A stretch of 27,511 bases of DNA from a virus: positions 1 through 27,511 of the IMG/VR virus record IMGVR_UViG_3300042889_001846. One strand, written 5' to 3'. Shown piece by piece: positions 2,906-21,883 of the stretch. The notes under the pieces were generated by a model. That model was not told where the DNA came from. It made no database searches and saw only the letters and a list, made by a program, of their open reading frames with translations. The position numbers and the translations under genes were made by a program. The stretch's first letter is position 1; each line of letters begins with the position of its first letter.

Positions 2906-3054
2906 GCGACCTGTTCGGCGAGTCACATCACCTCGAGGCAGAGGATGAGAACCATGAGGCTCCCAAGGAGTTGGTGATCGCCCTGCCATGCACACCATTC
3001 AAGTTGGGTGCGAATGGCGCAATGGTCGTCATCGTGCCGGAGAAAAAGCAATGA
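2902..3054 (+). CDS. Small hypothetical protein, 50 aa
   Basis: It starts with GTG overlapping the previous stop (GTGA) and ends with TGA overlapping the ATG of the synthetase gene (ATGA). The N-terminal half is acidic and histidine-containing (HHLEAEDENHEAP), and the C-terminal half is hydrophobic (LVIALPCTPFKLGANGAMVVIV). I do not recognise it. The paired 4-base overlaps on both sides are the main evidence that it is a real, translationally coupled gene. Confidence 0.5.
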   Translation: MSDLFGESHHLEAEDENHEAPKELVIALPCTPFKLGANGAMVVIVPEKKQ

Positions 3055-3974
3055 CGCCTTACATCACTCGCGTCGCCCCCAGCCCCACGGGCGTGATGCA
3101 CATCGGTACCGCGCGTACCGCACTCTTCAACTGGCTCGCGGCTCGCGCCTCGGGCGGCAAGTTCTATCTGCGCATCGACGACACCGATGATTCGCGGAAC
3201 GATGCCGCTCACGTCGACCTCATCAAGGCCTCGCTGGCCTGGCTGAATCTCGACTACGATGATATTTTGTTCCAAAGCTCTGATGTCTCGCGCGATCGTG
3301 CGGTGGCCTGGGCCAATGATCTTGTGGCCATGAACCTCGCACAAGTTCTGGACAACGGTGCGATCGCGCTCGTGTGGGATCGCATGATGCCCGACAGCTG
3401 GGACGACGTGGTCTCCGGCCATCACGACATCACGGATGATTCCATCGACAAGACCATTGATGGAACCATCCTGATCCGAGGTGGTGATAACGTGGGCAAG
3501 CCCACCTACCACTGGAACAGTGTGTGCGATGATTTCGCGATGGGCATCAACTATATCATCCGCGGCAACGACCACATCACGAACACTGATCGTCAAGTCG
3601 CGATGTGGTGGGCGCTGGACCGCATCAATGGCAGCCTTCCCGCTGCTGATATGCTGGATCGTCCCCTTCCCACGTTCGCTCACGTGTCCTTGATTTTCAA
3701 GGACAAGAAGAAGCTGAGCAAGCGCGATGGCGCGGCATCGCTGATGCATTATCGTGACGCCGGCTATGACCGGGACGCCATCTTCGGCTTCCTGTTGGGT
3801 CAAGGCTGGGGCCGCAGCGACGGCAACACCAAGCACCTTATGACGCGGGACGACGCCCTGGCGATGTTCCTCGACGGTGGTAACTTCATCAGCCGAACCA
3901 ATACGGGATTCGACCAATTCATCTTGGATTCGTTGGATCGTAAGTGGAAGGCCCGCAAGGAGAAGGCTGCATGA
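3051..3974 (+). CDS. Glutamyl-tRNA synthetase-like protein, catalytic domain only
   Basis: The 307-residue protein is a class I aminoacyl-tRNA synthetase of the Glu type. It has APSPTGVMHIGTART (about 9-23, HIGH-type motif), RIDDTD (41-46), YHWNSVCDDFAMGINYIIRG (about 153-172, then NDHITNTDRQ) and KLSKRDG (221-227, KMSKS-type motif). Bacterial GluRS is about 470 residues; here the C-terminal anticodon-binding helical cage is nearly absent. The protein may therefore charge tRNA with relaxed anticodon recognition, act on a phage tRNA or non-tRNA substrate, or work like the short GluQ-RS group. It lacks the cysteine zinc site usual in GluQ-RS. The ATG overlaps the previous stop, and the SPFH gene follows with another ATGA overlap. 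Codons are GC-rich compared with the late genes. Confidence 0.85.
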   Translation: MTPYITRVAPSPTGVMHIGTARTALFNWLAARASGGKFYLRIDDTDDSRNDAAHVDLIKASLAWLNLDYDDILFQSSDVSRDRAVAWANDLVAMNLAQVLDNGAIALVWDRMMPDSWDDVVSGHHDITDDSIDKTIDGTILIRGGDNVGKPTYHWNSVCDDFAMGINYIIRGNDHITNTDRQVAMWWALDRINGSLPAADMLDRPLPTFAHVSLIFKDKKKLSKRDGAASLMHYRDAGYDRDAIFGFLLGQGWGRSDGNTKHLMTRDDALAMFLDGGNFISRTNTGFDQFILDSLDRKWKARKEKAA

Positions 3975-5587: not shown

Positions 5588-6346
5588 TTAACCGATAACC
5601 CAACCATAGCCCATGCCCTGCTCTACGCCGTTCTTGAGTTCTTCAAGAAGCGCGTCGTATTCGGCTTGGCCCTCGGCCTTCAGGCTATCGCCATTGAGTG
5701 TGGTTCCACCCTGTGGGCCCGCTATGCTACCAAACTTACTTCGGGCTTCACCAAGAATCATCTTGGATCTGGCGATGGTGCATCGCAGTAGCCATGGACG
5801 AGCATAGGTGTCGGCCAAGAGAGCATCAGTTGGACGATAATTGTAGATCCAAAGCAATACGGTCTCGGGGCCACGAATGTCACGTATGAGTTCGATACGA
5901 TGAGCTGAGTGATCCCAAGAGAAATTGATGTAGGCACCAAACATTTTACCTACGAGTTCCTGAAAACCGGTCATAAGCTCGTAAGTAACCAAGGTACCAG
6001 CATTGCCACCCTGAAGTCCTAGAGTCATCTGATTGATGAACGCCGCGCCAAAGGGTTCAAAATTCATACCCGTTCCACTCGCCGTTCCGGTCGTCGCCCT
6101 GCGGAATATCTGGCGAACTTCTATGATCTCGTTTGGAAGAATGTAGGTGTTCTGTCCTGGTATAAGTTCCAAGAATGCCGTCCGCTCCTGGGTGGCGTTG
6201 CTGGATCGCTGACGATAGGTGTCGAGAGCGAAGTTCATCGCATCATCGAAGTGTTCAGGTGTGAGCTCAACTCGAACAATCCCGCCACCTAGAGCCCTGT
6301 GGGCTTCACCGATTAGCTTCTGACGTGGTGTGGTTATTTGAGTCAT
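5588..6346 (-). CDS. T4 gp13-like neck (head-tail connector) protein
   Basis: The 252-residue protein runs on the minus strand. Its N-terminal pattern (LGGGIVRVELTPEHFDDAMNFALDTYRQRSSNATQERTAF, in two stretches) matches what I know of T4-type neck proteins in large myoviruses and cyanophages, where a helical region opens onto a beta-rich middle. Supporting context is strong: gp14-like and gp15-like genes follow within 5 kb, in the T4 order. Gp13 with gp14 closes the head and forms the tail docking site. A late promoter (AATAAATA, minus strand) lies 24 bases before the ATG. The opposite strand direction relative to gp14 is a local rearrangement compared with T4. Another virion connector role is possible. 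Confidence 0.55.
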   Translation of the reverse strand: MTQITTPRQKLIGEAHRALGGGIVRVELTPEHFDDAMNFALDTYRQRSSNATQERTAFLELIPGQNTYILPNEIIEVRQIFRRATTGTASGTGMNFEPFGAAFINQMTLGLQGGNAGTLVTYELMTGFQELVGKMFGAYINFSWDHSAHRIELIRDIRGPETVLLWIYNYRPTDALLADTYARPWLLRCTIARSKMILGEARSKFGSIAGPQGGTTLNGDSLKAEGQAEYDALLEELKNGVEQGMGYGWVIG

Positions 6347-7182: not shown

Positions 7183-8241
7183 ATGAAGTCATTCGGTCTA
7201 TGGGACAACAAGAAAAACGAGGACTACTATTTCCTCGATGGGGTGATCCTTGAGCAGTTTGAACGTGGTGGCATGGCCGCCCTCGTTCATAAGTATCTTG
7301 GTGTGCATGACCAGGGTGAAACCGGTGATGCCACACAACCCAGCGCAGCTAAGAGTAAGACCAAGAAGGAGCGGCAGATCCAAGACCTTCTCTTTCTAGA
7401 GAACCGTGATCGTCACTATTCTCCTGACCTCTTTGAACTCCGCGCCGTCTACAATTTGCAGGACAATGAATTCAACATGAGCCAGTTTGGTCTCTTCGTT
7501 GATGCCGACACCTTCTACGTCGAGATCCATCTCAATGATTGTCTGACCAAGATTGGTCGCAAGCTTATGAGTGGCGACGTCTTGGAGTTCCCACACCTAC
7601 GAGATGACGCGCTCTTGGACGAGGACGCTCCGGCGATCAACAAATACTACCAGATCACCGATGTGAATCGTGCCGCTGGTGGATGGAGTCCAGTATGGCG
7701 CCCACACATACTCCGCATCAAAATCAAGCCCATGACTGCAAGTCAGGAATTTAGCGACATCTTGGATCGTGAAGAGGGTGACTTCAATGTGCGTGATCTC
7801 ATTGGAGACTGGCAGGATCAAATCAACATCAGTCAGAGCATCGTTGAACAAGCTGAGTCAGACGTTCCCTTCCGTAACTTCCAGACTCTGCAATTCTACG
7901 TCGTTCCTGGCGACGAGGATGGTACCCAATATCCATGGATATTTGCCGGCGATGGCGAACCACCCAACGGAGCGGAAGTCGTGGGGTCGGGTAGAGACTT
8001 CCCTGAGTCCCCCTCTCTGGGTGACTGGTTCCTCAACACGGCACACGAGCCTAATGTTCTCTACCAACGAATAGAGGGTGGATGGAAGCGCAAGGAAGTG
8101 GACCTTCGAAGGAAATGGTCCGCCGCCCATAGAATATTGGAATCGTTTATTTCGAATAGGAATGTCTCGGAAATTCAAGGTGAGAGTGTAATCGAAAGAC
8201 AACCATTGTCCAAAGTTCTAAAGCCCAGAGCTGATTTTTGA
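7183..8241 (+). CDS. T4 gp14-like neck protein
   Basis: The 352-residue protein shows the gp14 pattern. RDRHYSPDLFELRAVYN resembles T4 gp14's tyrosine/proline-rich YVSPDLIFGE region. A MSQFGLFVDADTFYVEIHLN block and then GDVLEFPHL...KYYQITDVNRAAGGWSP correspond to T4's GDLIYFPM...FEINWVEPYD region. T4 gp14 is 256 residues. The extra C-terminal part contains LGDWFLNTAHEPNVLYQRIEGGWK, a short beta motif common in phage tail and fibre proteins. Gp14 with gp13 completes the neck. The last codons (8218-8241) overlap, tail to tail, the end of the minus-strand homing endonuclease, so the natural C-terminus may have been altered by that insertion. Base use in the last 100 bases is more AT-rich. Confidence 0.7.
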   Translation: MKSFGLWDNKKNEDYYFLDGVILEQFERGGMAALVHKYLGVHDQGETGDATQPSAAKSKTKKERQIQDLLFLENRDRHYSPDLFELRAVYNLQDNEFNMSQFGLFVDADTFYVEIHLNDCLTKIGRKLMSGDVLEFPHLRDDALLDEDAPAINKYYQITDVNRAAGGWSPVWRPHILRIKIKPMTASQEFSDILDREEGDFNVRDLIGDWQDQINISQSIVEQAESDVPFRNFQTLQFYVVPGDEDGTQYPWIFAGDGEPPNGAEVVGSGRDFPESPSLGDWFLNTAHEPNVLYQRIEGGWKRKEVDLRRKWSAAHRILESFISNRNVSEIQGESVIERQPLSKVLKPRADF

Positions 8242-9226: not shown

Positions 9227-9688
9227 ATGAATGACTTCCACATGAGTGCAAACGGAATTGCACTGATCAAACACTTTGAGAGCTTCGTTGCTGGTGCCTA
9301 TGTTTGTCCAGCAGGTGTTCTTACTATTGGTTATGGTACCACTCTGGGTGTGAAGCGTGGTCAGGTTGTTTCGGAGAAACAAGCTACCGCTCTACTGGCT
9401 CGTGATCTCCTGGGCTTTGAAGCGGCGGTCAAGCGCCTCGTCAAGGTACAACTGACACAGAACCAGTTCGACGCCCTTGTGAGCTTCGCCTACAACTGTG
9501 GTGCTGCGAATCTCGCAAGTAGTACGATGTTGAAGCTTATCAACAACCGTCAATTTCAACTTGTGCCTGCTCAGTTCCTACGCTGGAACAAGGGAGGCGG
9601 CAAGGTCCTTGCTGGTCTGACTCGTCGTCGACGCAGCGAGATGTGGCTATGGCAGACCGGTACGCTCAAGTACGATTTCGAGGTATAA
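9227..9688 (+). CDS. GH24 phage lysozyme (endolysin)
   Basis: The 153-residue protein is a GH24 muramidase. The catalytic series is E18 (HFESF), C27 and T33 (VLTIGYGTT), i.e. Glu-8aa-Cys-5aa-Thr. That is the P1-endolysin version of the family triad, with Cys in the position where T4 lysozyme has Asp. The second half has LTQNQFDALVSFAYNCG and LTRRRRSE, both typical of the family. It cuts the MurNAc-GlcNAc bond of peptidoglycan. No signal peptide is visible, so export needs a holin or virion delivery. A late promoter and AAGGAGA ribosome binding site support the start. The gp15-like gene follows after 3 bases, so they are probably co-transcribed. Confidence 0.93.
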   Translation: MNDFHMSANGIALIKHFESFVAGAYVCPAGVLTIGYGTTLGVKRGQVVSEKQATALLARDLLGFEAAVKRLVKVQLTQNQFDALVSFAYNCGAANLASSTMLKLINNRQFQLVPAQFLRWNKGGGKVLAGLTRRRRSEMWLWQTGTLKYDFEV

Positions 9689-9691
9689 TTC

Positions 9692-11056
9692 ATGGCACTT
9701 GACTACTTCTATGACGCCCAACTTCGGAGATATTGGACTCAATTCGTTCGGATCTTTGAGGGCTTTCAATACCGCTCCGGTCGCAACGGTAGTGGTCAAG
9801 TCTCCATGCGTACCGTTCCTGTTAAACTAGCCAGTAAGGATCGCCTTGTCGGTCACATCCTGAGAAACAACTCTGAGAACACTACCCTGTCTACTCCACA
9901 GATGAGTTGCTGGATGAATAGTCTCTCAAGGGTTCCAGAGCGCGTACAAAGCCCCAACTTCACCAGCACGGTCAACGTGTGGGAACGAGCCATTGATCCC
10001 CTCACGAATAGTTACACTGGTGACCAGGGTAGGAGTTACACCGTTGAACGTATGATGGGTGTGCCCTACGACATGGTAATGAGTCTGGATATCTGGACCT
10101 CCAACGAGGATCAGAAGAGTCAGATCGTTGAGCAGATTCTTCAGCTATTCAACCCCAGTATTGACATGCAGGTCAGCGACAATCCCTTGGATTGGAATGC
10201 CCTTGGCATCGTGGAGTTTGAGAACATTGAATGGAGTTCCCGCTCTTTCCCAATCGGCACTGAGGATGACATCGACATCACAACGATGACTTTCCGTGTA
10301 CCCATTTGGATCAGCCCGCCCGCAAAGGTAAAGAAACAGAATATCATCCAACAGATCATCACAAACATCACGGCAACTCCTACGATTGAACCACGCGAGG
10401 GCATCGTGACTGATACACATTACAGTGAATCTGATATGCGGAGTCGTCTAGTCATCACACCGGGTGATTATCACGTGGAGCTCTCAGGTGCCGTTGCCAC
10501 TCTGTTGACTAGTGGTCAGGGTCTCACTGACGCTGATGACAACGAACTCGATTGGGCTAAGGTATTAGGCCTATATGGTAAGGTTCGTCCCGGTATTAGC
10601 CAGATCCGTTTCAAGACCACGGGTGATCTCGAGAACCACGACAATGACGTCATTGGTACGTTTGATCTCGACTTCGAGGTCAACAAAATGAACATTACGT
10701 TTGATCTCGAGACCCTACCCACCAATACCCTTCCGGGTATCAAGGGTGTGGTTGATCCACACCTCAATCACCCAGGCAACACCACCCCATTGACATCTCC
10801 TGTGATTGGCGATCGTTGGATGATACTCAATAGCATCGCAGCCAACACCACATGGGGCGCCTTCAGTGCTGGTGAGAATGATATCATTCAGTTCACTAAC
10901 TCGGGATGGTCAGTGGTCTTCGACGCCAGCGCGACAGAAACCGCGGCCCGACTGACTCACAACACCACTGGCGTTCAATACAAGTGGACGGGTGGTGAGT
11001 GGGTCAACTCTCTGGAGGGGATTTATCGCCCTGGGTTTTGGAGGATATTCTTGTGA
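9692..11056 (+). CDS. T4 gp15-like proximal tail sheath stabiliser
   Basis: The N-terminal 240 residues match the gp15 family of T4-like phages: FYDAQLRRYWTQFVRIFEGF, then RTVPVKLASKDR, ILRNNSENTTLSTPQMSCWMN, YTVERMMGVPYDMVMSLDIWTSN, QILQLFNPSIDMQVSDNPLDW and WSSRSFPIGTEDDIDI, ending in IWISPPAKVKKQN. Gp15 caps the tail tube and sheath and joins the tail to the neck. T4 gp15 is 272 residues; this one has about 200 more. The addition includes a beta-rich GDRWMILN...GWSVVF module like that in phage fibre proteins. The start follows the lysozyme stop by 3 bases, with GAGG upstream. The 3' end overlaps a minus-strand small gene by 53 bases. Confidence 0.85.
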   Translation: MALDYFYDAQLRRYWTQFVRIFEGFQYRSGRNGSGQVSMRTVPVKLASKDRLVGHILRNNSENTTLSTPQMSCWMNSLSRVPERVQSPNFTSTVNVWERAIDPLTNSYTGDQGRSYTVERMMGVPYDMVMSLDIWTSNEDQKSQIVEQILQLFNPSIDMQVSDNPLDWNALGIVEFENIEWSSRSFPIGTEDDIDITTMTFRVPIWISPPAKVKKQNIIQQIITNITATPTIEPREGIVTDTHYSESDMRSRLVITPGDYHVELSGAVATLLTSGQGLTDADDNELDWAKVLGLYGKVRPGISQIRFKTTGDLENHDNDVIGTFDLDFEVNKMNITFDLETLPTNTLPGIKGVVDPHLNHPGNTTPLTSPVIGDRWMILNSIAANTTWGAFSAGENDIIQFTNSGWSVVFDASATETAARLTHNTTGVQYKWTGGEWVNSLEGIYRPGFWRIFL

Positions 11057-11717: not shown

Positions 11718-12331
11718 CCACTAGCTCTCTATATCGCATCCGCAACGGTAAGGGTCTGTGGAGCAATGGTGGCATGTCACCGACTTTCTCGAGTAAGGGA
11801 AAGGCCTGGGTCAGCCTTGGTGCTTTGAAGACTCACATCCGCTGTCTTGTTGAGAAGAGCCATTATGATAAGGTGAATCCTTTGGAGCCTTGGCGTAAGA
11901 TTACCAAATCCCTTCCAGAGGATTGGGAGATCGTTGAGTTCGTGATCGTTGAATCGAATACGGATCTCATTCGTCCCGCCAGCACCATCGTTGATGTGAT
12001 GAAGCGCCGTGAAACATTGGTGCATCATCACGGTGAGGCCTTTGCCAATCTAGTGGATCGTTTGGAGAAGAACGGCCAAGAGGTTGAGTACCAGTGGTGT
12101 TTGTGTAGCAAAGACCCCTACCGCCATGCTGGAATTCAGGTAGAGCTCTTGACTCTCTTGAAGTCTAAGAAGCTCAAGAGGGGCACTGACATTCAGACAG
12201 CGACCCTAGGTGGTGATACCGCAGTGGCATTCAAGGACAAGAGTCAGGCGATGTTGTTCAAGCTTGAATTCAAACACAAGCTCACGGCTGTGAATCTCAA
12301 GGAATTCGTAGAAACAAATCTTGACAGTTAG
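11714..12331 (+). CDS. Hypothetical protein, 205 aa; paralogue of the protein at 22272
   Basis: It starts with TTG overlapping the preceding stop. The protein begins YRIRNGKGLWSNGG, contains PEDWEIVEFVIVES in the middle, and near the end has TAVAFKDKSQAMLFKLEFKHK. The protein at 22272-22853 has the same three landmarks (YMIRNKTTGKFWNG, DDWEIVEVDVA, GFLDRQQAMQARL) at similar spacing, so the two look like distant paralogues. The C-terminal segment resembles a small alpha/beta fold seen in many T4-like phage orphans. The function is unknown. A TTGACA overlaps the end of the gene. Confidence 0.7.
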   Translation: MTTSSLYRIRNGKGLWSNGGMSPTFSSKGKAWVSLGALKTHIRCLVEKSHYDKVNPLEPWRKITKSLPEDWEIVEFVIVESNTDLIRPASTIVDVMKRRETLVHHHGEAFANLVDRLEKNGQEVEYQWCLCSKDPYRHAGIQVELLTLLKSKKLKRGTDIQTATLGGDTAVAFKDKSQAMLFKLEFKHKLTAVNLKEFVETNLDS

Positions 12332-12347
12332 ACTGTCTGGCTAAATA
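12321..12347 (+). promoter_or_regulatory. TTGACA element plus late box GCTAAATA before the NAD operon
   Basis: TTGACA (12321-12326) lies 15 bases before TAAATA (12342-12347). The octamer GCTAAATA (12340-12347) is also a late-type box. The site could act early, late or both. The 86-base leader to nadE holds a hairpin (GTTG...CAAC around GGGGTTACCC) and no gene. Confidence 0.5.
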
Positions 12348-12433
12348 ATGGCATAGAATTGGTTGCGAATCCCGCGTTGTGGGGTTACCCAACTGCTCTA
12401 ACATCAAACACCCATCCTGAAAGGTGAGGTATC

Positions 12434-13462
12434 ATGTCGCATATCAAGACCATCCTCGAGATCAGCCGCCAAGACCAAGTGGGCCCACTGAGCTCCTGGT
12501 TCGCCGGGCAACTCGAAAAGTCGATTCAAATCGGCCACTACGCACTTCCCTCTCAAGTCCAAAAGGACGGCGAGGCCATTATCGAATGGTTGACCAAATA
12601 CCGTGAACAGACGGGCTGCTCGACAGCTACCATGGGAATCAGCGGCGGCGTTGATTCGGCCCTCACGGCGGCCCTGCTCAAGCAAGCCGGCTGGCGCGTC
12701 CTCGGCTACGCCCTTCCCATTCACCAAGACCCCACGGAGACCGAACGCGGTCGTGAAGCTGCAGAAGCTCTCGGCCTCGAGTTCGAAGTCTTCGACGTCT
12801 CGGATACCTACGATGCGCTGGTGAAGTCCGTGGCGGTCCTGGACCCCACCCTCACTGATCCCAACATGGCCGATGATTTCGGCGTCAAGGTTCGTCGGGG
12901 CAACATTCGGGCGCGGTCGCGGATGATTCCACTCTACAACATGGCACACCGTCACGGCGGTCTGGTGGCCAGCACGGACAACCTGTCGGAGTTGCAGGCT
13001 GCATTCTTCTCCCTGCACGGTGACGTCGGTGATATCTCGCCCATCCAGGCCTTCAACAAGAGCTGGGAGATTCCCATGCTGGCCAAACTGTTCGGTGTTC
13101 CAGAAGCTACGTGGCGCGCCAAGCCCACTGACGGCCTGGGTATTGCCGCCGGCGATGAAGCCCAGCTGGGTTGCACCTACCTGGAATGGGACCTCATGTT
13201 CCAGGCGATGAGCACGGCCCACCTGGCTGTGTCGACTCTTCCCGCGAAGAAAGACTTCATCATCTCGCAGATGGAATTCGAGGGTGACGAGCGCGCCATG
13301 CAGGTGTTCGAGTTGGTCTACAACCGCGCCGGCCGCAACTGGTTCAAGCGTATGAACCCCGTGAACTTCGAGCATCCTCGCCTGCGTACTCTGAGCGCAC
13401 TGGAGCGCACTGACCGCAAGATGTTCTGGCCAGAGGTGGTTCGGTCGGGAGCGAGCAACTAA
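12434..13462 (+). CDS. nadE: NH3-dependent NAD+ synthetase
   Basis: The 342-residue protein carries the PP-loop SGGVDSA (70-76), then GNIRARSRMIPLYNMAHRH, STDNLSELQAAFFSLHGDVGDISPI (two stretches) and KPTDGL, the expected order of ATP, deamido-NAD and ammonia-tunnel elements in NadE. It lacks the N-terminal nitrilase domain of glutamine-dependent enzymes, so it should use ammonia. It makes NAD+ from nicotinate adenine dinucleotide, the last Preiss-Handler step. The stop overlaps the start of pncB (TAATG), so the two are coupled. This gene opens a run holding every other enzyme needed from nicotinamide. It has high-GC codon use compared with the late genes. Confidence 0.93.
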   Translation: MSHIKTILEISRQDQVGPLSSWFAGQLEKSIQIGHYALPSQVQKDGEAIIEWLTKYREQTGCSTATMGISGGVDSALTAALLKQAGWRVLGYALPIHQDPTETERGREAAEALGLEFEVFDVSDTYDALVKSVAVLDPTLTDPNMADDFGVKVRRGNIRARSRMIPLYNMAHRHGGLVASTDNLSELQAAFFSLHGDVGDISPIQAFNKSWEIPMLAKLFGVPEATWRAKPTDGLGIAAGDEAQLGCTYLEWDLMFQAMSTAHLAVSTLPAKKDFIISQMEFEGDERAMQVFELVYNRAGRNWFKRMNPVNFEHPRLRTLSALERTDRKMFWPEVVRSGASN

Positions 13463-14835
13463 TGGCTCATCCCAACCTCGCCCGCCGCGCATACGATCAT
13501 CAGTTTCGGTACGACTGGATTGTCCGTGATCTTCTGGATACGGACTTCTACAAGCTGCTGATGCTCCAGTTCATCTGGCGCAACTTCCTGTTCGTCCGTA
13601 ACGTGTTCAAGGTCATCAACCGTACCAAGACGGTTCGACTGGCCGATGACATTGATATCGATGAGCTGCGGGCGCAGTTGGATCACGTCCGGACCCTGAG
13701 CTGGTCCAATCAGGCCATCAACTACCTGAAGTCACAGGAATTCTACGGCAAGCGTGATCTGTTCTCCAGCGGCTTCCTGGACTACCTGATTAAGACGTGG
13801 AAACTCAGCGACTATACGCTGGGTTATGAGGGGCGGCTGGGTGAAGGCTGGGAACACGCCAAGATCCGAACCGGCCAGCTTGAGCTGACGTTCCACGGCA
13901 CGTGGGCCGAGGTTACGATGTGGGAGATCTACGCTCTAACGATCATCAACGAGATGCGTAACCGCAAGCTCATGGCAGACATGAGTGAGCTGGATCTGGA
14001 CATCATGTACGCCCAGGCCAAGACCAAGCTGTTCAAGAAGCTTCAACGCCTGAAGGGTTCGACTGCGAAGATCGCAGAGTTCGGTACTCGTCGTCGGCAC
14101 GGACACCTCTGGCAGGAGTTCGTCATCCAGATGATGATAGAGCACCTGGGCGAGAACTTCGTCGGCACCAGTAACGTCTACTTCGCTATGAAGTACGGTC
14201 TCAACGCCATCGGGACCAACGCGCACGAACTTCCCATGACCCTGGCTGCTCTGGCCAAGGACGATGAGGAACTCAGGGAATCGCAGTACAAGGTCTGCCA
14301 GCTCTGGCAGGACGACTATCGTGGTGGTCTGCTGGTCATGCTCCCCGACACCTTCGGGACCACACAGTTTCTCAAGAACGCTCCACTGTGGTTGGCGGAC
14401 TGGAACGGTGCTCGTCCCGACTCGAAGAAGCCCCTTCCCGGTGGTGAAGAGCTGATTGAATATTGGCAAGAGCACGGCCAGGACGCTACGCAGAAGCTGG
14501 TTATCTTCAGCGACGGAATGGACGTCCGCATCGACGGCTTCGAACCCAACGGTGAAGATATCATTGATGTGCATGAGCACTTCAAGGGACGGATCCGTGA
14601 CAGCTACGGCTGGGGAACGATGGCTACCAATGACTTCATCGGCTGCCACCCCACGGACCCGGATCGCATGAAGGCGATCTCGCTGGTCTGCAAGGTTGAT
14701 TCGGCAGAGGATCGCGCTGCGGTCAAACTGTCGGACAACTACACCAAGGCAACCAGCAGCAACCCTGAGGAAATTCAACGCTACCGAGACGTGTTCGGCC
14801 ATGAAGGCATGGCCGATGCTCCGGTTCTAGTCTGA
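13462..14835 (+). CDS. pncB: Nicotinate phosphoribosyltransferase
   Basis: The 457-residue protein shows the nicotinate phosphoribosyltransferase signatures: LLDTDFYKLLM (about 24-34), EFGTRRRHG (206-214), FVGTSNVYFA (about 233-242), GTNAHELPM (H255 expected to be the phosphorylated His), DTFGTTQFL, VIFSDGMD and a WGTMATNDF near the C-terminus. It joins nicotinate and PRPP to give NaMN, with ATP hydrolysis. The pattern fits PncB better than the nicotinamide-specific NAMPT/NadV of some other phages. Length is close to the bacterial enzyme. It is coupled to nadE by a one-base overlap and followed after 7 bases by a small gene. Confidence 0.9.
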   Translation: MAHPNLARRAYDHQFRYDWIVRDLLDTDFYKLLMLQFIWRNFLFVRNVFKVINRTKTVRLADDIDIDELRAQLDHVRTLSWSNQAINYLKSQEFYGKRDLFSSGFLDYLIKTWKLSDYTLGYEGRLGEGWEHAKIRTGQLELTFHGTWAEVTMWEIYALTIINEMRNRKLMADMSELDLDIMYAQAKTKLFKKLQRLKGSTAKIAEFGTRRRHGHLWQEFVIQMMIEHLGENFVGTSNVYFAMKYGLNAIGTNAHELPMTLAALAKDDEELRESQYKVCQLWQDDYRGGLLVMLPDTFGTTQFLKNAPLWLADWNGARPDSKKPLPGGEELIEYWQEHGQDATQKLVIFSDGMDVRIDGFEPNGEDIIDVHEHFKGRIRDSYGWGTMATNDFIGCHPTDPDRMKAISLVCKVDSAEDRAAVKLSDNYTKATSSNPEEIQRYRDVFGHEGMADAPVLV

Positions 14836-14842
14836 GGAAACA

Positions 14843-15025
14843 ATGAAGTATTTCATCCGCGGTGGTATCTACACCGATATGTCGTTCACCACCGTGACTC
14901 CGGGTACCGAAGAGGAATACGGTCCCTTTGATACCTACGTGGAAGCTGCTGATGCCTGGAAGGGCTACATGTTCGCCAAGGTGGATATCTGCCCACACCG
15001 TCTGAGCATTATTCCTGAGGAATAA
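14843..15025 (+). CDS. Small DUF4170-like protein, 60 aa
   Basis: The 60-residue protein (KYFIRGGIYTDMSFTTV, then GTEEEYGPFDTYVEAADAWKG and VDICPHRLSII) strongly recalls the small DUF4170 family, which I know mainly from alphaproteobacteria. This recollection has not been checked by search. It lies 7 bases after pncB with GAGGAAA as ribosome binding site, so it belongs to the same transcript. Its function is unknown. If the match is right it hints at an alphaproteobacterial host or donor. Confidence 0.6.
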   Translation: MKYFIRGGIYTDMSFTTVTPGTEEEYGPFDTYVEAADAWKGYMFAKVDICPHRLSIIPEE

Positions 15026-15027
15026 TC

Positions 15028-15055
15028 TAGACAAACTCTGATTCTAGTGTAGATT
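15028..15055 (+). promoter_or_regulatory. Early promoter, TAGACA-16-TAGATT
   Basis: TAGACA (15028-15033), 16 bases, TAGATT (15050-15055). ACTCTGA and TCAGAGT flank the -10 as an inverted repeat, and the element ATTCAGAGTAGAAG is shared with the promoter at 5125. It gives the Nudix-to-PncA part of the NAD operon its own start. Confidence 0.65.
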
Positions 15056-15079
15056 CAGAGTAGAAGAAAAGGAGCATCC

Positions 15080-15667
15080 ATGCACAGTTATCCCTTCCGA
15101 ATGTCGAGCAACACGGCCACCATGCTGGTAATCGACCGTAACCCTGACGACCTTCTGATGAGCCGGGTGTGCATTGGTATCCGCGGCCGTAACGTGGAAG
15201 TTCATCCCAGCAAGCCAAGTCTGCCGGGTGGCTTCATGGAGGCTAAGTTCTCCGCAGCGCAAGCGGCCTTTATGCTCAAGGGTAGCACCTCGGACTTCAT
15301 TCCCCCTGATCTGCATCCGGGTGAAGATCTCGAGACCACTGCCTTGCGTGAGCTCAAGGAAGAGCTCTGCACAGACTTCGAACGTGGGCAGCTCGTTCAG
15401 TATTACACCTGCAGCCTACCGGGTCTGGATCCGCGGGCTCATGTTGTGAACCTCTGCTTCTACCTCGAAGCAACTCCCGAACAAGTCGCATCGATCAAGG
15501 CCGGTGACGACCTCGAGGAGATCGAATGGTGGACCGTATTGGACTGCCTAGAAATGTACCACGAAATCGCCTTCAATCACCGAGACCTGATGCAACGTGG
15601 CCTCAAGGCTTGGGCAAAGGAAGAGCGCTACAAAGAAATGGAGGCCCAACTTGGCCGACCGGCGTAA
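15080..15667 (+). CDS. Nudix hydrolase
   Basis: The 195-residue protein has the catalytic part of the Nudix box, E82-x7-RELKEEL (R90 to L96), including the metal-binding glutamates E94 and E95. The usual leading glycine is displaced. PGG lies at 49-51, and about 30 extra residues separate it from E82, so the box loop is enlarged. Nudix enzymes split nucleoside diphosphates linked to another group. In this operon, ADP-ribose, NADH or NaAD are plausible substrates, but the sequence does not decide. A promoter lies directly upstream and the ATG has a GGAG ribosome binding site. Its end overlaps the start of the adenylyltransferase gene by 17 bases. Confidence 0.85.
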   Translation: MHSYPFRMSSNTATMLVIDRNPDDLLMSRVCIGIRGRNVEVHPSKPSLPGGFMEAKFSAAQAAFMLKGSTSDFIPPDLHPGEDLETTALRELKEELCTDFERGQLVQYYTCSLPGLDPRAHVVNLCFYLEATPEQVASIKAGDDLEEIEWWTVLDCLEMYHEIAFNHRDLMQRGLKAWAKEERYKEMEAQLGRPA

Positions 15668-16316
15668 GTTCGCGGAGATTAAGAATCCGCAAAAGCGTGT
15701 TGGCTTGGCCAATATGCGTACCCAACCCATGCACTTGGGACACCTGGGTATTCTGAATACCATGATTGGTGCCTGCGAGACTGTGATCCTCGGCCTGGGC
15801 TCTGCTCAGAAGGCTCCGGACGAACATGATCCCTGGCCCATCGACAACCGCATTCAACAGGCCCGCAATGTCTACGGTGATCGGATCAAGATCATCCCCC
15901 TGAATGATCTGGGAACCACGGCGGGCACCAACGATTGGATCGATTACGTCTTGGATAAGGCTCAGAAGCTGGGCCTTCCCGAACCGACTGATTACTACAC
16001 GGGCAGCGAGGCCGACGCCATCTGGTATCGGGAACGCTTCTACCGCAAGTTCTTCAGCCCCGTCCCCGAGGATGTCACTCTGCCTCCTGTCTGGGACGAG
16101 AGTGTAGACGAAGCCTACGATGGCTATTATACCGAGGGTGGCGTCCTGCGCCATCTTCATATTCGCGCTCGGGATATGACGCAAGTTCCCAGCGCAACCG
16201 AGATCCGTACCTTCATGGCACTTCGCAATGATGGGTGGAAGCGGTTCGTCCCCCAGGTTAACCATTCACTTGTGGAGGAGACTTATCCACAAGAATTCAG
16301 AGTGAAGAATTCCTAA
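15651..16316 (+). CDS. Nicotinamide/nicotinate mononucleotide adenylyltransferase (HxGH nucleotidyltransferase)
   Basis: I chose the TTG at 15651 because GGAGG lies 6 bases before it. Upstream starts lack a site, and the first ATG (15714) would cut into the fold. The 221-residue protein has the nucleotidyltransferase motif RTQPMHLGH (HLGH at 28-31), then PWPIDNRIQQA, and the C-terminal VPSATEIRTFMA, equivalent to the ISSTxIR motif. This is the NMNAT pattern, closer to the NadM/archaeal type than to NadD. It should adenylate NaMN to NaAD, or NMN to NAD+. Its last 19 codons are a recoded replacement brought by the adjacent homing endonuclease; the original codons remain at 16940-17005. Confidence 0.85.
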   Translation: MADRRKFAEIKNPQKRVGLANMRTQPMHLGHLGILNTMIGACETVILGLGSAQKAPDEHDPWPIDNRIQQARNVYGDRIKIIPLNDLGTTAGTNDWIDYVLDKAQKLGLPEPTDYYTGSEADAIWYRERFYRKFFSPVPEDVTLPPVWDESVDEAYDGYYTEGGVLRHLHIRARDMTQVPSATEIRTFMALRNDGWKRFVPQVNHSLVEETYPQEFRVKNS

Positions 16317-16896
16317 GGATCTTTTTAACCTTTTCTCGGAGGCTGGCCGCGGCAGACATCTTTGCTTTTGCTTCTGGACTACAAACTCTACCCACAGCCT
16401 TCATACGACGAGCCTCTCGGGCTTCAGGGTCTAGGCTATCCCAATAGGTTGATGCACTCTTTGACATCAAACTCTTGGTATCATCACTTGCTTTGGTTCC
16501 GAAACGATGACTGTCCTCTCCAGGTTTATGAGGGTTGTTGTTCCTCATGTATTCTTTGAAAGATTCTGGTTTGGTTTTGCCTTTTGAAGAAGGTGGATTT
16601 GCAGACACACATAGATTGGTAAGTATGCCTTTCTCATCAAATCTCCTCCTACCAAGATCTTTGATGAGTTTCTCTTCGAGTTGATACGCATCGGCTTCGG
16701 AGAGGTCATCGGATATGATCTTAATCACTGGCTCCAAACCTTCTGATCTGATCTGTCCAATAACATTGTCCTTGTATGGATTTTCACCTTTTGTGTAACC
16801 CTTCAAATGGTTGAAGGCGCGAGTCCCAGTGCCCTTTCCGATATAGAAGGGAAGTTCAGTTCTCGGGTCACAGAGTGAATAAACATAGAAAGACAT
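16297..16896 (-). CDS. GIY-YIG homing endonuclease
   Basis: The ATG at 16896 is used because the late promoter (16931-16938) overlaps the longer reading frame. The 199-residue protein has YVYSLCD (GIY element, 4-10), FYIGKGTGTRAFNHL (YIG element plus catalytic Arg) and a later QLEEKLIKDLG that supplies the metal-binding Glu. The C-terminal part carries a basic NUMOD-like tail (SPEAKAKMSAAASLREKVKKIL). It lies opposite to the operon and its last seven codons overlap the end of the adenylyltransferase gene tail to tail. It is AT-rich compared with its GC-rich neighbours and has its own exact TATAAATA promoter. It cuts DNA, probably at the uninterrupted adenylyltransferase 3' end. Confidence 0.85.
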   Translation of the reverse strand: MSFYVYSLCDPRTELPFYIGKGTGTRAFNHLKGYTKGENPYKDNVIGQIRSEGLEPVIKIISDDLSEADAYQLEEKLIKDLGRRRFDEKGILTNLCVSANPPSSKGKTKPESFKEYMRNNNPHKPGEDSHRFGTKASDDTKSLMSKSASTYWDSLDPEAREARRMKAVGRVCSPEAKAKMSAAASLREKVKKILRNSSL

Positions 16897-16930
16897 AGAC
16901 AAACGACCGATCCTAAGTATTATGATCGTG

Positions 16931-16938
16931 TATTTATA
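16931..16938 (-). promoter_or_regulatory. Exact late promoter TATAAATA (minus strand) for the GIY-YIG gene
   Basis: A perfect octamer lies 34 bases before the endonuclease ATG. It lies just inside the insertion edge, next to the stranded adenylyltransferase codons, so the mobile unit carries its own late promoter. Confidence 0.7.
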
Positions 16939-16939
16939 C

Positions 16940-17005
16940 GTCAATCATTCACTGGTTGACGAAACCTACCCGGAAGAGTTCCGGGTAAGGAAACCTGGAG
17001 AATAA
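16940..17005 (+). pseudogene. Stranded original C-terminal codons of the adenylyltransferase gene
   Basis: Read from 16940, the plus strand gives VNHSLVDETYPEEFRVRKPGE and a stop. The working gene now ends VNHSLVEETYPQEFRVKNS (16257-16313). Of 19 aligned residues 14 are identical, yet 11 of those 14 codons differ at silent positions (my count: 39 of 57 bases identical). This is the pre-insertion end of the gene. It ends one base before the pncA ATG and still contains the pncA ribosome binding site (GGAG). Confidence 0.85.
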
Positions 17006-17006
17006 A

Positions 17007-17660
17007 ATGACCAACACCATCGAACTACTGTCCACCGATGCACTCATCGTTGTGGATCCGCAACTGGACTTCTGCCCCGGCGGCGCTCTTGCCGTGACCG
17101 ACGGCGACGAAGTCATGCCACTGATCGTGAACCTGATGGGTCGCTTCGACACCGCCGGCGCCACTATTGTGTTCACCCAGGACTGGCACACTCAGGACCA
17201 AGTCAGCTTCGCTTCCAACCACGGCGTCGCCCCGTTCACTGACATCGAGGTCAGCTACGGAACGCAGACGACCTGGCCCGACCATTGCCTGCAAGGCAGC
17301 ACGGGCGCAGACTTCCACCCCTCACTGAACATGAACAAGGTGGACCTGATCATCCGTAAGGGTGCCCATCCCACCATTGACAGCTACTCGGCTTTCAATG
17401 AGAACGACCGCACGACCAGCACTGGTCTGGCCGGACTGCTCCGTGATCGTGGTATCACGCGCGTCTTCCTCGTGGGTCTGGCTTACGACTTCTGCGTGGG
17501 CTACAGCGCACTGGATGCCGTGACTGAAGGCTTTGACGTCATCATCCTCAAGGACGCCACCCGTGCCATCGACCTCAACGGCAGCGTGGCTATCATGGAA
17601 GAACAGTTCACCCTGGCGGGTGTTCAACTTGTGGACAATCTGAACCCCTACAATGGGTAG
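17007..17660 (+). CDS. pncA: Nicotinamidase
   Basis: The 217-residue protein is a PncA-type isochorismatase-fold hydrolase. The catalytic triad is visible: D17 (IVVDPQLDFCPGG), K118 (IIRKG) and C163 (LAYDFCVGYSA). The metal site is D59-x-H61 (TQDWH) with H93 in WPDHC. It hydrolyses nicotinamide to nicotinate and ammonia, which feed PncB and, for the ammonia, NadE. Before the homing endonuclease arrived, this gene followed the adenylyltransferase stop by one base. Its own GGAG ribosome binding site lies in the stranded codons. The 3' end overlaps the next gene by 8 bases. Confidence 0.93.
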   Translation: MTNTIELLSTDALIVVDPQLDFCPGGALAVTDGDEVMPLIVNLMGRFDTAGATIVFTQDWHTQDQVSFASNHGVAPFTDIEVSYGTQTTWPDHCLQGSTGADFHPSLNMNKVDLIIRKGAHPTIDSYSAFNENDRTTSTGLAGLLRDRGITRVFLVGLAYDFCVGYSALDAVTEGFDVIILKDATRAIDLNGSVAIMEEQFTLAGVQLVDNLNPYNG

Positions 17661-18147
17661 GATTATCCGGGCACCGGAGACCTGGGAGCGCACCTACGCT
17701 CCTGGTGTCTTCCTTGCAGGTGGCATCTCGAACTGTGTGGACTGGCAGGAAGCTGTCGCTCATAAAATCTCCCAGGCGACCGACTTGGATGTGATCAATC
17801 CTCGGCGCTATGACTGGAACATGGACAGTCAGAGCGAAGAGAGTATTGCCCAGATCGAGTGGGAATACAAGCAGATCCACGACTGTGATTATATGCTGTT
17901 CTGGTTCTGTGAAGAGACACTCTGTCCTATCACGCTCTATGAGTTGGGTATGGCCGTGAGTCGTCGAGAACTTCGTAGGTCTCCCGATCATGTGCCGCTC
18001 GTCGTGGGTGTGCATCCCAACTATCAGAGAAAGCTGGACGTCTACACTCAGGTTGGATTGCATCGTCCCGAGGTCACCCTATATGAGGATCTCGACTTTA
18101 TGGTTGATGAGTTCGTAGCTCAGTATCTGGAAGCATCCAAGCGTTGA
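17653..18147 (+). CDS. Nucleoside 2-deoxyribosyltransferase-like protein
   Basis: The 164-residue protein has GVFLAGGISNCVDWQ at the N-terminus, then INPRRYDWNM, HDCDYMLFWFCEETLCPITLYELG with the family's acidic residues, and a C-terminal VHPNYQRKLDV. This fits the second nucleoside deoxyribosyltransferase family (Nuc_deoxyri_tr2), proteins with a Rossmann-like fold that cleave or swap bases on nucleosides. The start overlaps the end of pncA by 8 bases, so it belongs to the NAD operon. A role in base exchange on NAD-related or nucleoside substrates is possible but not shown. Its stop overlaps the next promoter. Confidence 0.75.
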   Translation: MGRIIRAPETWERTYAPGVFLAGGISNCVDWQEAVAHKISQATDLDVINPRRYDWNMDSQSEESIAQIEWEYKQIHDCDYMLFWFCEETLCPITLYELGMAVSRRELRRSPDHVPLVVGVHPNYQRKLDVYTQVGLHRPEVTLYEDLDFMVDEFVAQYLEASKR

Positions 18148-18171
18148 CACTTTGGAGAGGTAGTGTACTCT
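18144..18171 (+). promoter_or_regulatory. Early promoter, TTGACA-16-TACTCT
   Basis: TTGACA (18144-18149), 16 bases, TACTCT (18166-18171). The ATG of the RNA ligase is 7 bases past the -10, so transcription should begin at the start codon. GGAGAG and CTCTCC flank the -10 as an inverted repeat. Confidence 0.7.
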
Positions 18172-18178
18172 CTCCTAC

Positions 18179-18838
18179 ATGGAAACGCCGCACAAATATC
18201 CGTCAACGCTGCATTGGGTCGATAGTCCCGAGGTGCACCGTGATGACAACGTGCATCAGCACCCGGAGAACTTCCTCAACGTCGAGGTCGTGATCTCCGA
18301 GAAGCTTGATGGCGGCAACACCTGCCTGTGGAAGGGTGACGTTTACGCTCGCTCCACGGGACAGCCTGCCACGCAGGGTTGGTTCGCCATGGTGAAGAAG
18401 CATCACGCCTGGAAGACCATGAGCCTCGATTCCTCGTACCAAGTCTACGGTGAGGACCTCTACGGCATTCACAGTATCGAATACGAGGCTCTCCGTGAGG
18501 ATGAGACCTATCGGGTGTTCAACATCCGAGAAGACGATACTTGGATGAGCTGGGACGATATGCAGGAACTGGCAGGTGATCTCGACCTCATGACCGTGCC
18601 CACCTTGTTCCGTGGAACCTTCGATCGTGTCCAAGACATCACGGCTTGGATGCAAGAGCAAATCAATCTGCCCAGCAGCATAGGTGGTCCCCGTGAGGGA
18701 TTCGTGATGCGCTATGCTGATGCGTTCCATAACGATGACTTCCAGGCACGGACGGCCAAGTTCGTTCGAAGGGGCCATGTGCAAACCGATGAGCACTGGA
18801 CCAAGAACTGGAAGCCCATTCCCTTGGTGAAAAGCTAA
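18179..18838 (+). CDS. ATP-dependent RNA ligase
   Basis: The 219-residue protein carries the nucleotidyltransferase motifs of covalent RNA ligases: motif I EKLDGGN (41-47, adenylated K42), YARSTGQ, YGEDLYGIHSIEY (motif III region), EGFVMRYADAF (motif IV) and TAKFVRRGHV (motif V). It is close to the minimal catalytic domain, shorter than T4 Rnl1 or Rnl2, and without an extra C-terminal domain. Such ligases repair nicked tRNAs or RNAs after host anticodon nucleases act. The AMP product could be recycled, and ligases related to NAD metabolism exist, but this one should use ATP. It starts a three-gene operon with one-base overlaps. No ribosome binding site precedes the ATG. Confidence 0.88.
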   Translation: METPHKYPSTLHWVDSPEVHRDDNVHQHPENFLNVEVVISEKLDGGNTCLWKGDVYARSTGQPATQGWFAMVKKHHAWKTMSLDSSYQVYGEDLYGIHSIEYEALREDETYRVFNIREDDTWMSWDDMQELAGDLDLMTVPTLFRGTFDRVQDITAWMQEQINLPSSIGGPREGFVMRYADAFHNDDFQARTAKFVRRGHVQTDEHWTKNWKPIPLVKS

Positions 18839-20668: not shown

Positions 20669-21883
20669 ATGACCATGTTTGAAAGCCCTCTCATGACCCC
20701 GTTCGTGGATCTCGGTGAGGCGACCGCCGATGTGGTTTCTCCCCTCTCGCAGGAGAGTCAATTGCTTCTGAGCGTTCTCAAGGAGTTCGGCTTTCAGGGC
20801 GTGATCGGTAAGGTGCGTCGTGGCCCGGTGGTCACCATCCACGAGTTCATCCCCAGCGGTGGCGTGAAGATGCGCAACATCATCGCTTGCGCTGACGACA
20901 TCGCGCGTAACATGGCGGTGCAAAGCTGCCGCATCGCAACCGTGCCCGGAAGCAAGGCTCTGGGCTTTGAAATCCCCAACCAAGTTCGTGAGACGGTCAA
21001 GTTCAGCGACATGCTGAAGTGGCTGGAATACAATGCTGGTGACATGGTTCTGCCCATGGCCATCGGTGAGAGCATTGATGGCGAGCCAGTAGTCGCAGAC
21101 CTGACCAAGATGCCTCACCTGCTGGTTGGTGGCACCACGGGCTCGGGTAAGAGCGTGGGACTCAACACGATGATCCTGAGCCTGGTCGAACGCTACAAGG
21201 CCGATTACGCCCAGTTCGTTATGATCGATACCAAGATGCTTGAGCTGGGTGTCTACAACGGCATCCCGCATCTGCAACGGCCGGTGATCACCGACGCGGA
21301 ACAGGCCGTGTTGGCCCTCAACGATGTCGTGCAGGAGATGGAACGTCGGTACAAGCTCATGGCGGACTTCCGTGTCCGTAACATCAAGAGCTACAACGAC
21401 TTCATGCAGGAAGCTCGTGACGCCAACCATGTCTTCAAGTTCACCGATCAAACGGGTGAGACCATGGGCGGTATGCCCATCTACGAAAGCCGCATCGTTG
21501 AACCCAAGGCCCTGCCCTACATCGTGGTTGTCATTGATGAAGTGGCGGACCTCATGCTCGTGGCGGGCAAGGAAGTGGAGAAGGCGGTACAGCGACTGGC
21601 TCAGATGGCTCGGGCTGCTGGCATCCACCTCATCATGGCCACCCAACGGCCGTCGGTCGATGTCATCACCGGGACGATCAAGGCGAACTTCCCCAGTCGG
21701 ATTGCATTCCAGAGCGCCAGCGCCATCGACTCCCGGACCATCCTGGGTGCAATGGGTGCCGAGAAGCTGCTGGGTATGGGAGACTTGTTGATGAGCCTCA
21801 CGGGTAGTGAACCCCGTCGAGTCCACGGTAGTTTCATCAGCGATGCCGGCGTCCAAGAAGTTGTTGATCGGTTGCGCGTCTAG
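20669..21883 (+). CDS. FtsK/SpoIIIE-type DNA translocase motor
   Basis: The 404-residue protein covers the alpha and beta motor domains of FtsK/SpoIIIE. The Walker A is GTTGSGKS (155-162), the Walker B is YIVVVIDEVADLM (284-296), and between them VMIDTKMLELGVYNGIPHL is a close variant of the family's IDPK(M)LELSxYxGIPHL. MATQRPSVDVITGTIKANFPSRIAF (two stretches) follows, then GMGDLLM. It lacks the N-terminal membrane segments and the C-terminal gamma (KOPS-binding) domain, and ends just after the motor with a short SDAGVQEVVDRLR. It should be a soluble hexameric double-stranded DNA pump. Possible roles are genome segregation, clearing DNA of proteins or packaging support. It has a dedicated promoter and an AAGGAG ribosome binding site. 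Confidence 0.92.
   Translation: MTMFESPLMTPFVDLGEATADVVSPLSQESQLLLSVLKEFGFQGVIGKVRRGPVVTIHEFIPSGGVKMRNIIACADDIARNMAVQSCRIATVPGSKALGFEIPNQVRETVKFSDMLKWLEYNAGDMVLPMAIGESIDGEPVVADLTKMPHLLVGGTTGSGKSVGLNTMILSLVERYKADYAQFVMIDTKMLELGVYNGIPHLQRPVITDAEQAVLALNDVVQEMERRYKLMADFRVRNIKSYNDFMQEARDANHVFKFTDQTGETMGGMPIYESRIVEPKALPYIVVVIDEVADLMLVAGKEVEKAVQRLAQMARAAGIHLIMATQRPSVDVITGTIKANFPSRIAFQSASAIDSRTILGAMGAEKLLGMGDLLMSLTGSEPRRVHGSFISDAGVQEVVDRLRV

Follow-up and report, generated by a model that had tools for sequence, protein, structure and literature searches.

A candidate deamidating route from nicotinamide to NAD+ encoded by PncA, PncB, NadM and NadE genes of large phages

The window studied here, i.e., the whole 27,511-base stretch of the IMG/VR virus record IMGVR_UViG_3300042889_001846, carries myovirus genes and, at positions 12434-18838, a block of genes that might enable a phage to rebuild nicotinamide adenine dinucleotide (NAD+) from nicotinamide. 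A sequence-only reading had placed NadE, PncB, a nicotinamide mononucleotide (NMN) adenylyltransferase (NMNAT)-type enzyme and PncA at 12434-17660, and all four were recovered there by Pfam and NCBIfam matches, with their catalytic residues intact. The block starts with nadE (12434..13462), encoding a predicted single-domain, ammonia-type NAD synthetase (PF02540, E-value 9e-36; TIGR00552 domain above cut-off), followed by pncB (13462..14835) for a nicotinate phosphoribosyltransferase (PF04095, 6e-35; NCBIfam NF003704, 403 bits with a cut-off of 379), a small DUF4170 gene (14843..15025; PF13773, 2.5e-14) with GAGGAAACA upstream of its ATG, a Nudix hydrolase gene (15080..15667; PF00293, 6e-10) that retains the REx2EE motif, and nadM (15651..16316; PF01467, 23.6 bits, cut-off 21) for a NadM-type adenylyltransferase of NMN or nicotinate mononucleotide (NaMN). 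Further downstream are found pncA (17007..17660), encoding a nicotinamidase (NF008623, 198 bits, cut-off 174; PDB nicotinamidase 2wt9, 1.7e-62), a nucleoside 2-deoxyribosyltransferase (NDT)-like gene (17653..18147; PF15891, 2.8e-20) and an RNA ligase gene (18179..18838; PF09414, 1.8e-21). All of these genes lie on the plus strand and are tightly spaced or overlapping (nadE/pncB, nudix/nadM, pncA/NDT), except at an insertion between nadM and pncA. The Nudix and NDT-like genes had been noted in the same run, and indeed both belong to one block that is conserved across relatives; the NDT-like gene has the same place beside pncA in Sinorhizobium phage Phosso and other loci, and the RNA ligase gene trails the block in L013, L016, L018, L022, L023, L030 and L038. 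The start of nadM, previously set at 15597, is more likely the TTG at 15651, because homologues lack about the first 30 residues of the listed open reading frame (ORF) and the TTG is preceded by GGAGG. Chance or misread ORFs as the source of the gene set were ruled out by the family matches. A promoter and terminator scan of the block remained near chance level, the sole suggestive element being TTGACA-17-AATAAT (12321-12349) upstream of nadE.

The product of nadE is certainly a member of the NadE family, and its role as NAD synthetase is predicted. It retains the motifs SGGVDS (residues 70-75, the PP-loop that the sequence-only reading had singled out), GNIRAR, STDN, HGDVGD, PTDGLG, GDE and FKR; the lysine of the TK(Y/F)GD motif is missing, as it is in the glutamine-dependent forms in the alignment. 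Its AlphaFold model (predicted local distance difference test score, pLDDT, 91) has NAD synthetases and NMN synthetase as top fold matches. By family assignment PncB is a nicotinate, and not a nicotinamide, phosphoribosyltransferase; its best PDB match is 1ybe (449 bits), which is labelled nicotinate phosphoribosyltransferase, and it shares 50% identity with the PncB of Phosso. PncA has the features of a nicotinamidase, namely the catalytic residues D17, K118 and C163, the metal ligands D59, H61 and H93, and a score above the NF008623 cut-off. Across 13 phage homologues C163, the active-site cysteine proposed before, is invariant, as are D17, D59, H61 and H93, while K118 is nearly so. The adenylyltransferase is the most divergent enzyme of the set. 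Its best NCBIfam models are those of NadM (NF002243/TIGR01527), the HxGH and SATEIR motifs are retained, a profile of 15 phage sequences matched archaeal NMNAT (PDB, 1e-15), and the best folds for the AlphaFold model (pLDDT 79) are the archaeal NMNATs 1m8k/1ej2 and NadM-Nudix. The Nudix protein, a predicted ADP-ribose/NAD pyrophosphatase, is the counterpart of the Nudix half of the NadM-Nudix fusions found in sister clusters (L008, L035).

The four genes had been taken for a complete operon. The set is complete, but a minus-strand GIY-YIG/NUMOD3 endonuclease-like gene (16297..16944; PF22945, 2e-6; PF07460; homing endonuclease in PHROG) splits nadM from pncA. Direct repeats of 53 nt with 72% identity (16257-16309 and 16940-16992, 683 apart) bracket this ORF. 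On translation, the downstream copy gives a second C-terminus of NadM, NHSLVDETYPEEFRVRKPGE, ending in a stop codon 1 nt ahead of the pncA start, so that the segment 16940..17005 (plus strand) appears to be what is left of the former 3' end of nadM. Most simply read, the arrangement arose when an endonuclease element entered nadM at its 3' end, providing a recoded terminus, and before this event pncA lay next to nadM. The two genes are neighbours in Phosso (10 nt between them) and in the L024 group, and L023 carries a homologous GIY-YIG ORF at the equivalent position. As judged from this layout, nadE-pncB-DUF4170-nudix-nadM-pncA-NDT were a co-directional run prior to the insertion. The slot between nadM and pncA is occupied in some sister phages by a conserved protein of about 145 amino acids that has no Pfam match (L013:13674-14117, L016:13605-14048, L030:13284-13712); it might act as a partner domain to the RNA ligase, which is encoded separately.

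The window represents part of a myovirus whose nearest named relative is Phosso (469 kb). The virion genes of the two share 48-62% protein identity in conserved order; DNA similarity to phage records is near nil, with a single 47-base match, in the pncB of Phosso. Genes for a head-tail adaptor (5588-6346), a virion protein (7183-8241), an endolysin (9227-9688) and a T4 gp15-like tail sheath stabiliser (9692-11056) flank the block in synteny with Phosso, which rules out bacterial contamination. In Phosso, genes 366-377 encode the same enzymes with both gene order and adjacent virion genes preserved; its NadE is canonical and its PncA-like protein divergent. The same enzyme set is found in Atu_ph07 (gp236-242), again with a divergent PncA-like protein, gp236 (185173-185781 in NC_042013.1, annotated 'hypothetical protein'), and with another type of NadE, which is encoded at 100831-101658, within a frame of 561 amino acids (glutamine-type length) and 85 kb from the rest of the set. 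Bacillus phage G (gp273-283) also has the set, with NadD where the window has NadM and with another NadE type. The full set is thus present in annotated public genomes, those of Phosso and phage G.

A scan of viral contigs based on a PncB alignment gave 32 loci. When 37 viral records encoding PncB were searched in full with Pfam models, NadE was present in 31, PncA-like proteins of the isochorismatase family in 29 and NMNAT in 26. The sequence-only reading had called for a search of phage genomes for the same four-gene set, and all four genes were found within about 10 kb of each other in about 22 loci, near-identical contigs being counted once and the count being restricted to the neighbourhoods searched. 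These loci are the window, L002, L004, L005, L006, L008, L011, L012, L013, L016, L017, L018, L022, L023, L024, L030, L035, L038, L039, L123, L140 and L145; L004 and L005 were counted on weak NMNAT matches, and L035 and L039, neither of which has a Terminase_6N match, are taken to be phages on their IMG/VR label. Two Acinetobacter 'phage' records with pncB/pncA matches were excluded, the inspected one having pncB amid serB, psd and housekeeping genes as in a host chromosome. CAKLQH020000008.1 (L007), labelled Acinetobacter phage MD-2021a, is apparently a bacterial chromosome, with pncB beside serB, dtd, psd and phoR. At least five gene orders occur among the four-enzyme loci: gp15-x-x-NadE-PncB-Nudix-NadM-x-PncA-NDT-ligase in the Phosso/window group, NMNAT-Nudix fusion-PncB-PncA-NadE in L008, L011 and L017, PncB-NadE-NadM-PncA in the L024 group, NMNAT-Nudix-PncA-NadE-PncB in L035 and PncB-NMNAT-PncA-NadE in L039. 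Phage G has a further order of its own.

Three unrelated types of NadE occupy the slot between gp15 and pncB within the Phosso/window group: a virus-clade NadE (window, L012, L013, L018, L022, L030 and others), a canonical ammonia-dependent NadE (Phosso, L037) and a glutamine-dependent NadE of 591-606 amino acids with a CN_hydrolase domain (L016, L023). The NadE tree resolves these types as separate groups; in the gp15 tree the glutamine-type pair is nested among carriers of the virus-clade NadE (Shimodaira-Hasegawa-like approximate likelihood ratio test 99-100), and two changes are enough to explain the distribution. On these phylogenies, four or more lineages have supplied the NadE of the phage cluster, and three of these occur in the same slot beside pncB. 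The PncA slot of this group also varies: the window and L018 have a full nicotinamidase there, the other members a divergent relative. The kit of phage G comprises a Firmicutes-type PncB, a bacterial NadD and a NadE of its own, which all exceed at least one curated cut-off, and an isochorismatase-family protein under the nicotinamidase cut-off; by its gene families it is an independent assembly of the pathway. The swapping of unrelated isozymes in one slot suggests that it is the reaction itself that is maintained, and repeated assembly together with the in-place exchange of NadE points to selection for the pathway itself. The exchange also bears on the earlier proposal that the route supplies its own ammonia. 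This fits the single-domain NadE of the window, but in sister phages the slot is taken by a glutamine-dependent NadE, and because such forms do not need it, self-supplied ammonia is not a general design.

The virus-clade NadE stands apart from cellular NadE as a virus-only clade in a quick tree (support 97-99), with Bacteroidota and Pelagibacterales nearest. Its closest match in the genome collection (48%) lies on a 32-kb contig of a Paracoccaceae metagenome-assembled genome, which may be phage DNA; other cellular matches reach at most 39%. Where a virus-clade NadE gene occurs alone (L120-L195; e.g., L150:6901-8978, L178, L186), it often directly follows an IMPDH-like gene; other neighbours are sugar-nucleotide or radical-SAM genes.

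Taken together, the block probably constitutes a phage-borne deamidating module for the salvage of nicotinamide to NAD+; enzyme activity, flux direction and purpose of this module we infer from genes, residues and neighbourhood. PncA would convert nicotinamide to nicotinate and ammonia, and PncB would join nicotinate to host phosphoribosyl pyrophosphate (PRPP) to give NaMN; PRPP is presumably host-derived, since PRPP-synthetase-like genes are rare in the records. Adenylation by NadM and amidation by NadE would then lead to NAD+, with extra ATP spent, and the Nudix enzyme probably cleaves ADP-ribose (or NAD+) to AMP and ribose phosphate. The proposed route through nicotinate, NaMN and nicotinate adenine dinucleotide (NaAD) thus stands by family assignment for the PncA and PncB steps, but NaAD is not established over NMN as the last intermediate, because the adenylyltransferase is of the NadM type, which prefers NMN in some bacteria. 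As in Francisella, where the partner of NadM is a NadE homologue that functions as NMN synthetase (PMC3376133), the phage NadE might act on NaMN before NadM adenylates NMN to NAD+. The NadM family is able to use NMN, and a profile combining 27 NadE rows from viruses and cells had the Francisella structure 3fiu as its best PDB match (206 bits, versus 196 for Pyrococcus NadE). However, this margin is small, single-sequence and fold searches put Pyrococcus NadE ahead, archaeal NadM accepts NMN as well as NaMN (PMC3376133), and relatives fill the NadE slot with curated NAD+ synthase families, phage G using NadD; we therefore regard the NMN-first order as unlikely. It is very improbable that the virus-clade NadE is an ATP-dependent amidase or ligase for another substrate that came to lie in the block by chance. 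Many other viral contigs have it alone, with IMPDH-like, sugar or radical-SAM genes nearby, which would agree with such a role, but in the block it adjoins pncB, interchanges with bona fide NadE types and retains the NadE family motifs.

The salvage module differs from the phage routes that rebuild NAD+ by other means. NARP1 (Adps and Namat) joins ADP-ribose-pyrophosphate to nicotinamide in two steps (PMC12774641), and the window module would likewise rebuild NAD+ removed by host NADases. No match to PF13793, looked for as the sign of the PRPP-synthetase-like Adps, was obtained in the window, itself a fragment; PRPP-synthetase-type domains occurred in 3 of 19 records, and each record had one PF04095 gene. 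PRPP synthetase was accordingly rejected as a regular cluster partner, and NARP1 is not indicated, since such genes are rare. The NARP2-type salvage by NadV/NAMPT with NadM/NadR, represented by Vibrio phage KVP40, resembles the window module in making NAD+ with phage enzymes from nicotinamide and PRPP, in the NadM-family adenylyltransferase and in the Nudix protein. Unlike it, the window module deamidates nicotinamide (PncA), uses PncB as the transferase and re-amidates by NadE. NadV/NAMPT was found in none of 23 records, where PF04095 (19 records) and phrog_448 (23 records) matched the PncB gene alone, so that the phage NadM here would work with PncB. The earlier claim of a different phage design is thus borne out as to its distinctness from both routes, but the design is not unique to the window.

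With regard to cellular pathways, the bacterial PncA-PncB-NadD-NadE route (Preiss-Handler with nicotinamidase) has the same chemistry and enzyme families, whereas the window has NadM in place of NadD, and phage genomes carry the genes as a cluster; in bacteria, either the PncA route or the NAMPT route tends to be retained (PMC9316036). The Francisella route likewise brings together a NadM-type NMNAT, a Nudix domain and a NadE homologue, but the window module salvages nicotinamide via PncA and PncB. Phage NAD+ synthesis has been described as NadV plus NadM/NadR in two surveys by one group (PMC7824862; PMC9503650), the latter of which listed no other combination among 21,191 viral proteomes and stated that every NadM-bearing phage has NadV (PMC9503650). 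The gene sets predicted here, which combine NadM (or a substitute) with PncB, PncA and NadE and lack NadV, contradict such a strict pairing. In the Atu_ph07 paper PncB is mentioned solely as a target for polymerase chain reaction, while NadR and PnuC are discussed (PMC6102473). The four-enzyme phage set was not found described as a system in the literature searched, which excluded the 2024 NARP paper. On the gene content of these genomes, the PncA-PncB-NMNAT-NadE route is a real and recurrent variant of phage NAD+ salvage.

The recurrent assembly of the four-enzyme line in unrelated large phages suggests a gain from NAD+ upkeep during infection. The module might serve this upkeep under the drain of host NADases by recycling the nicotinamide set free on NAD+ cleavage, a purpose that we regard as the most likely one, with the chances for and against it about evenly balanced. 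NADases of the TIR or SIR2 type release nicotinamide and ADP-ribose (PMC12847820); nicotinamide recycling would fit an infection under such enzymes, and the Nudix protein could clear the ADP-ribose. Several observations weigh against the module or against this purpose. The window NadM scores under the NCBIfam cut-offs, and PncA-like proteins are divergent in most sister clusters, the only one scored (Phosso) being under the nicotinamidase cut-off. No partner gene was near in 62 of 76 virus-clade NadE loci; NadE capture by phages is therefore wider than the pathway, and without the pathway the enzyme might use NaAD or NaMN made by the host. The window is a fragment of only 27.5 kb, so that the remaining gene content of the phage lies outside the view. 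Moreover, the Thoeris sponge Tad2 is present in only 1 of 23 records, and Tad2 was rejected as a sign of Thoeris pressure.

The phages also have an NAD+ consumer of their own, the NAD+-dependent DNA ligase LigA, in 7 of 19 records (Phosso, Atu_ph07, G008, G015, G022, G030 and phage G). The cluster might thus provide a general supply of NAD(H) for phage enzymes and redox reactions (NAD+-dependent DNA ligase, RNA repair, nucleotide synthesis) and not serve counter-defence, as would agree with the scarcity of Tad2 and with a KptA-like RNA 2'-phosphotransferase, of an NAD+-using family, in the phage G cluster. However, the records G004 and G009 (>550 kb) have the cluster without a LigA match, and PncA recycles nicotinamide, a product of the glycosidic cleavage of NAD+ that LigA does not release; we consider this explanation a serious alternative, though we lean against it. 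Counter-defence and own NAD+ supply are compatible, not exclusive. It is improbable that the Nudix and NDT-like genes form the functional core, breaking down ADP-ribose-type immune signals, with NAD+ synthesis being secondary. Both genes are conserved in the Phosso/window block, and phage Nudix proteins have been proposed to clear ADP-ribose derivatives (PMC7824862), but the compact PncB-NadE-NadM-PncA clusters (L024-27, L031) gave no match to either, and NDT was also undetected in phage G and in L008-type clusters.

Phage NAD+ rebuilding is a recent theme of counter-defence with two designs known so far. We tentatively propose, with confidence falling slightly short of even, a third widespread ('NARP3-like') route by which jumbo phages would recycle nicotinamide against NADase immunity via PncA-PncB-NadM-NadE, with independent assemblies, one-slot swaps of ammonia- and glutamine-dependent NadE in a rhizobial-phage-like lineage, and possibly an NMN-first order. 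Phosso, which is cultured on Sinorhizobium meliloti, makes the pathway testable, and defence screens gain four more gene families to seek in phage genomes.

Outside the block, the window encodes an ADP-ribosylglycohydrolase (1874-2749) that is most like the ADP-ribosylarginine hydrolase Tri1 and shares 47% identity with genes of the Salmonella jumbo phages SE_PL and Munch; it may remove defensive or toxic ADP-ribosylation. Other genes encode a response-regulator receiver (4-378), a low-affinity iron permease (387-770), a protein with a GluRS/GluQRS catalytic domain (2988-3974) and an FtsK/SpoIIIE ATPase (20669-21883). A further NUMOD3/endonuclease-like ORF (819-1525) has its end inside a tRNA-Ser gene (1440-1525).

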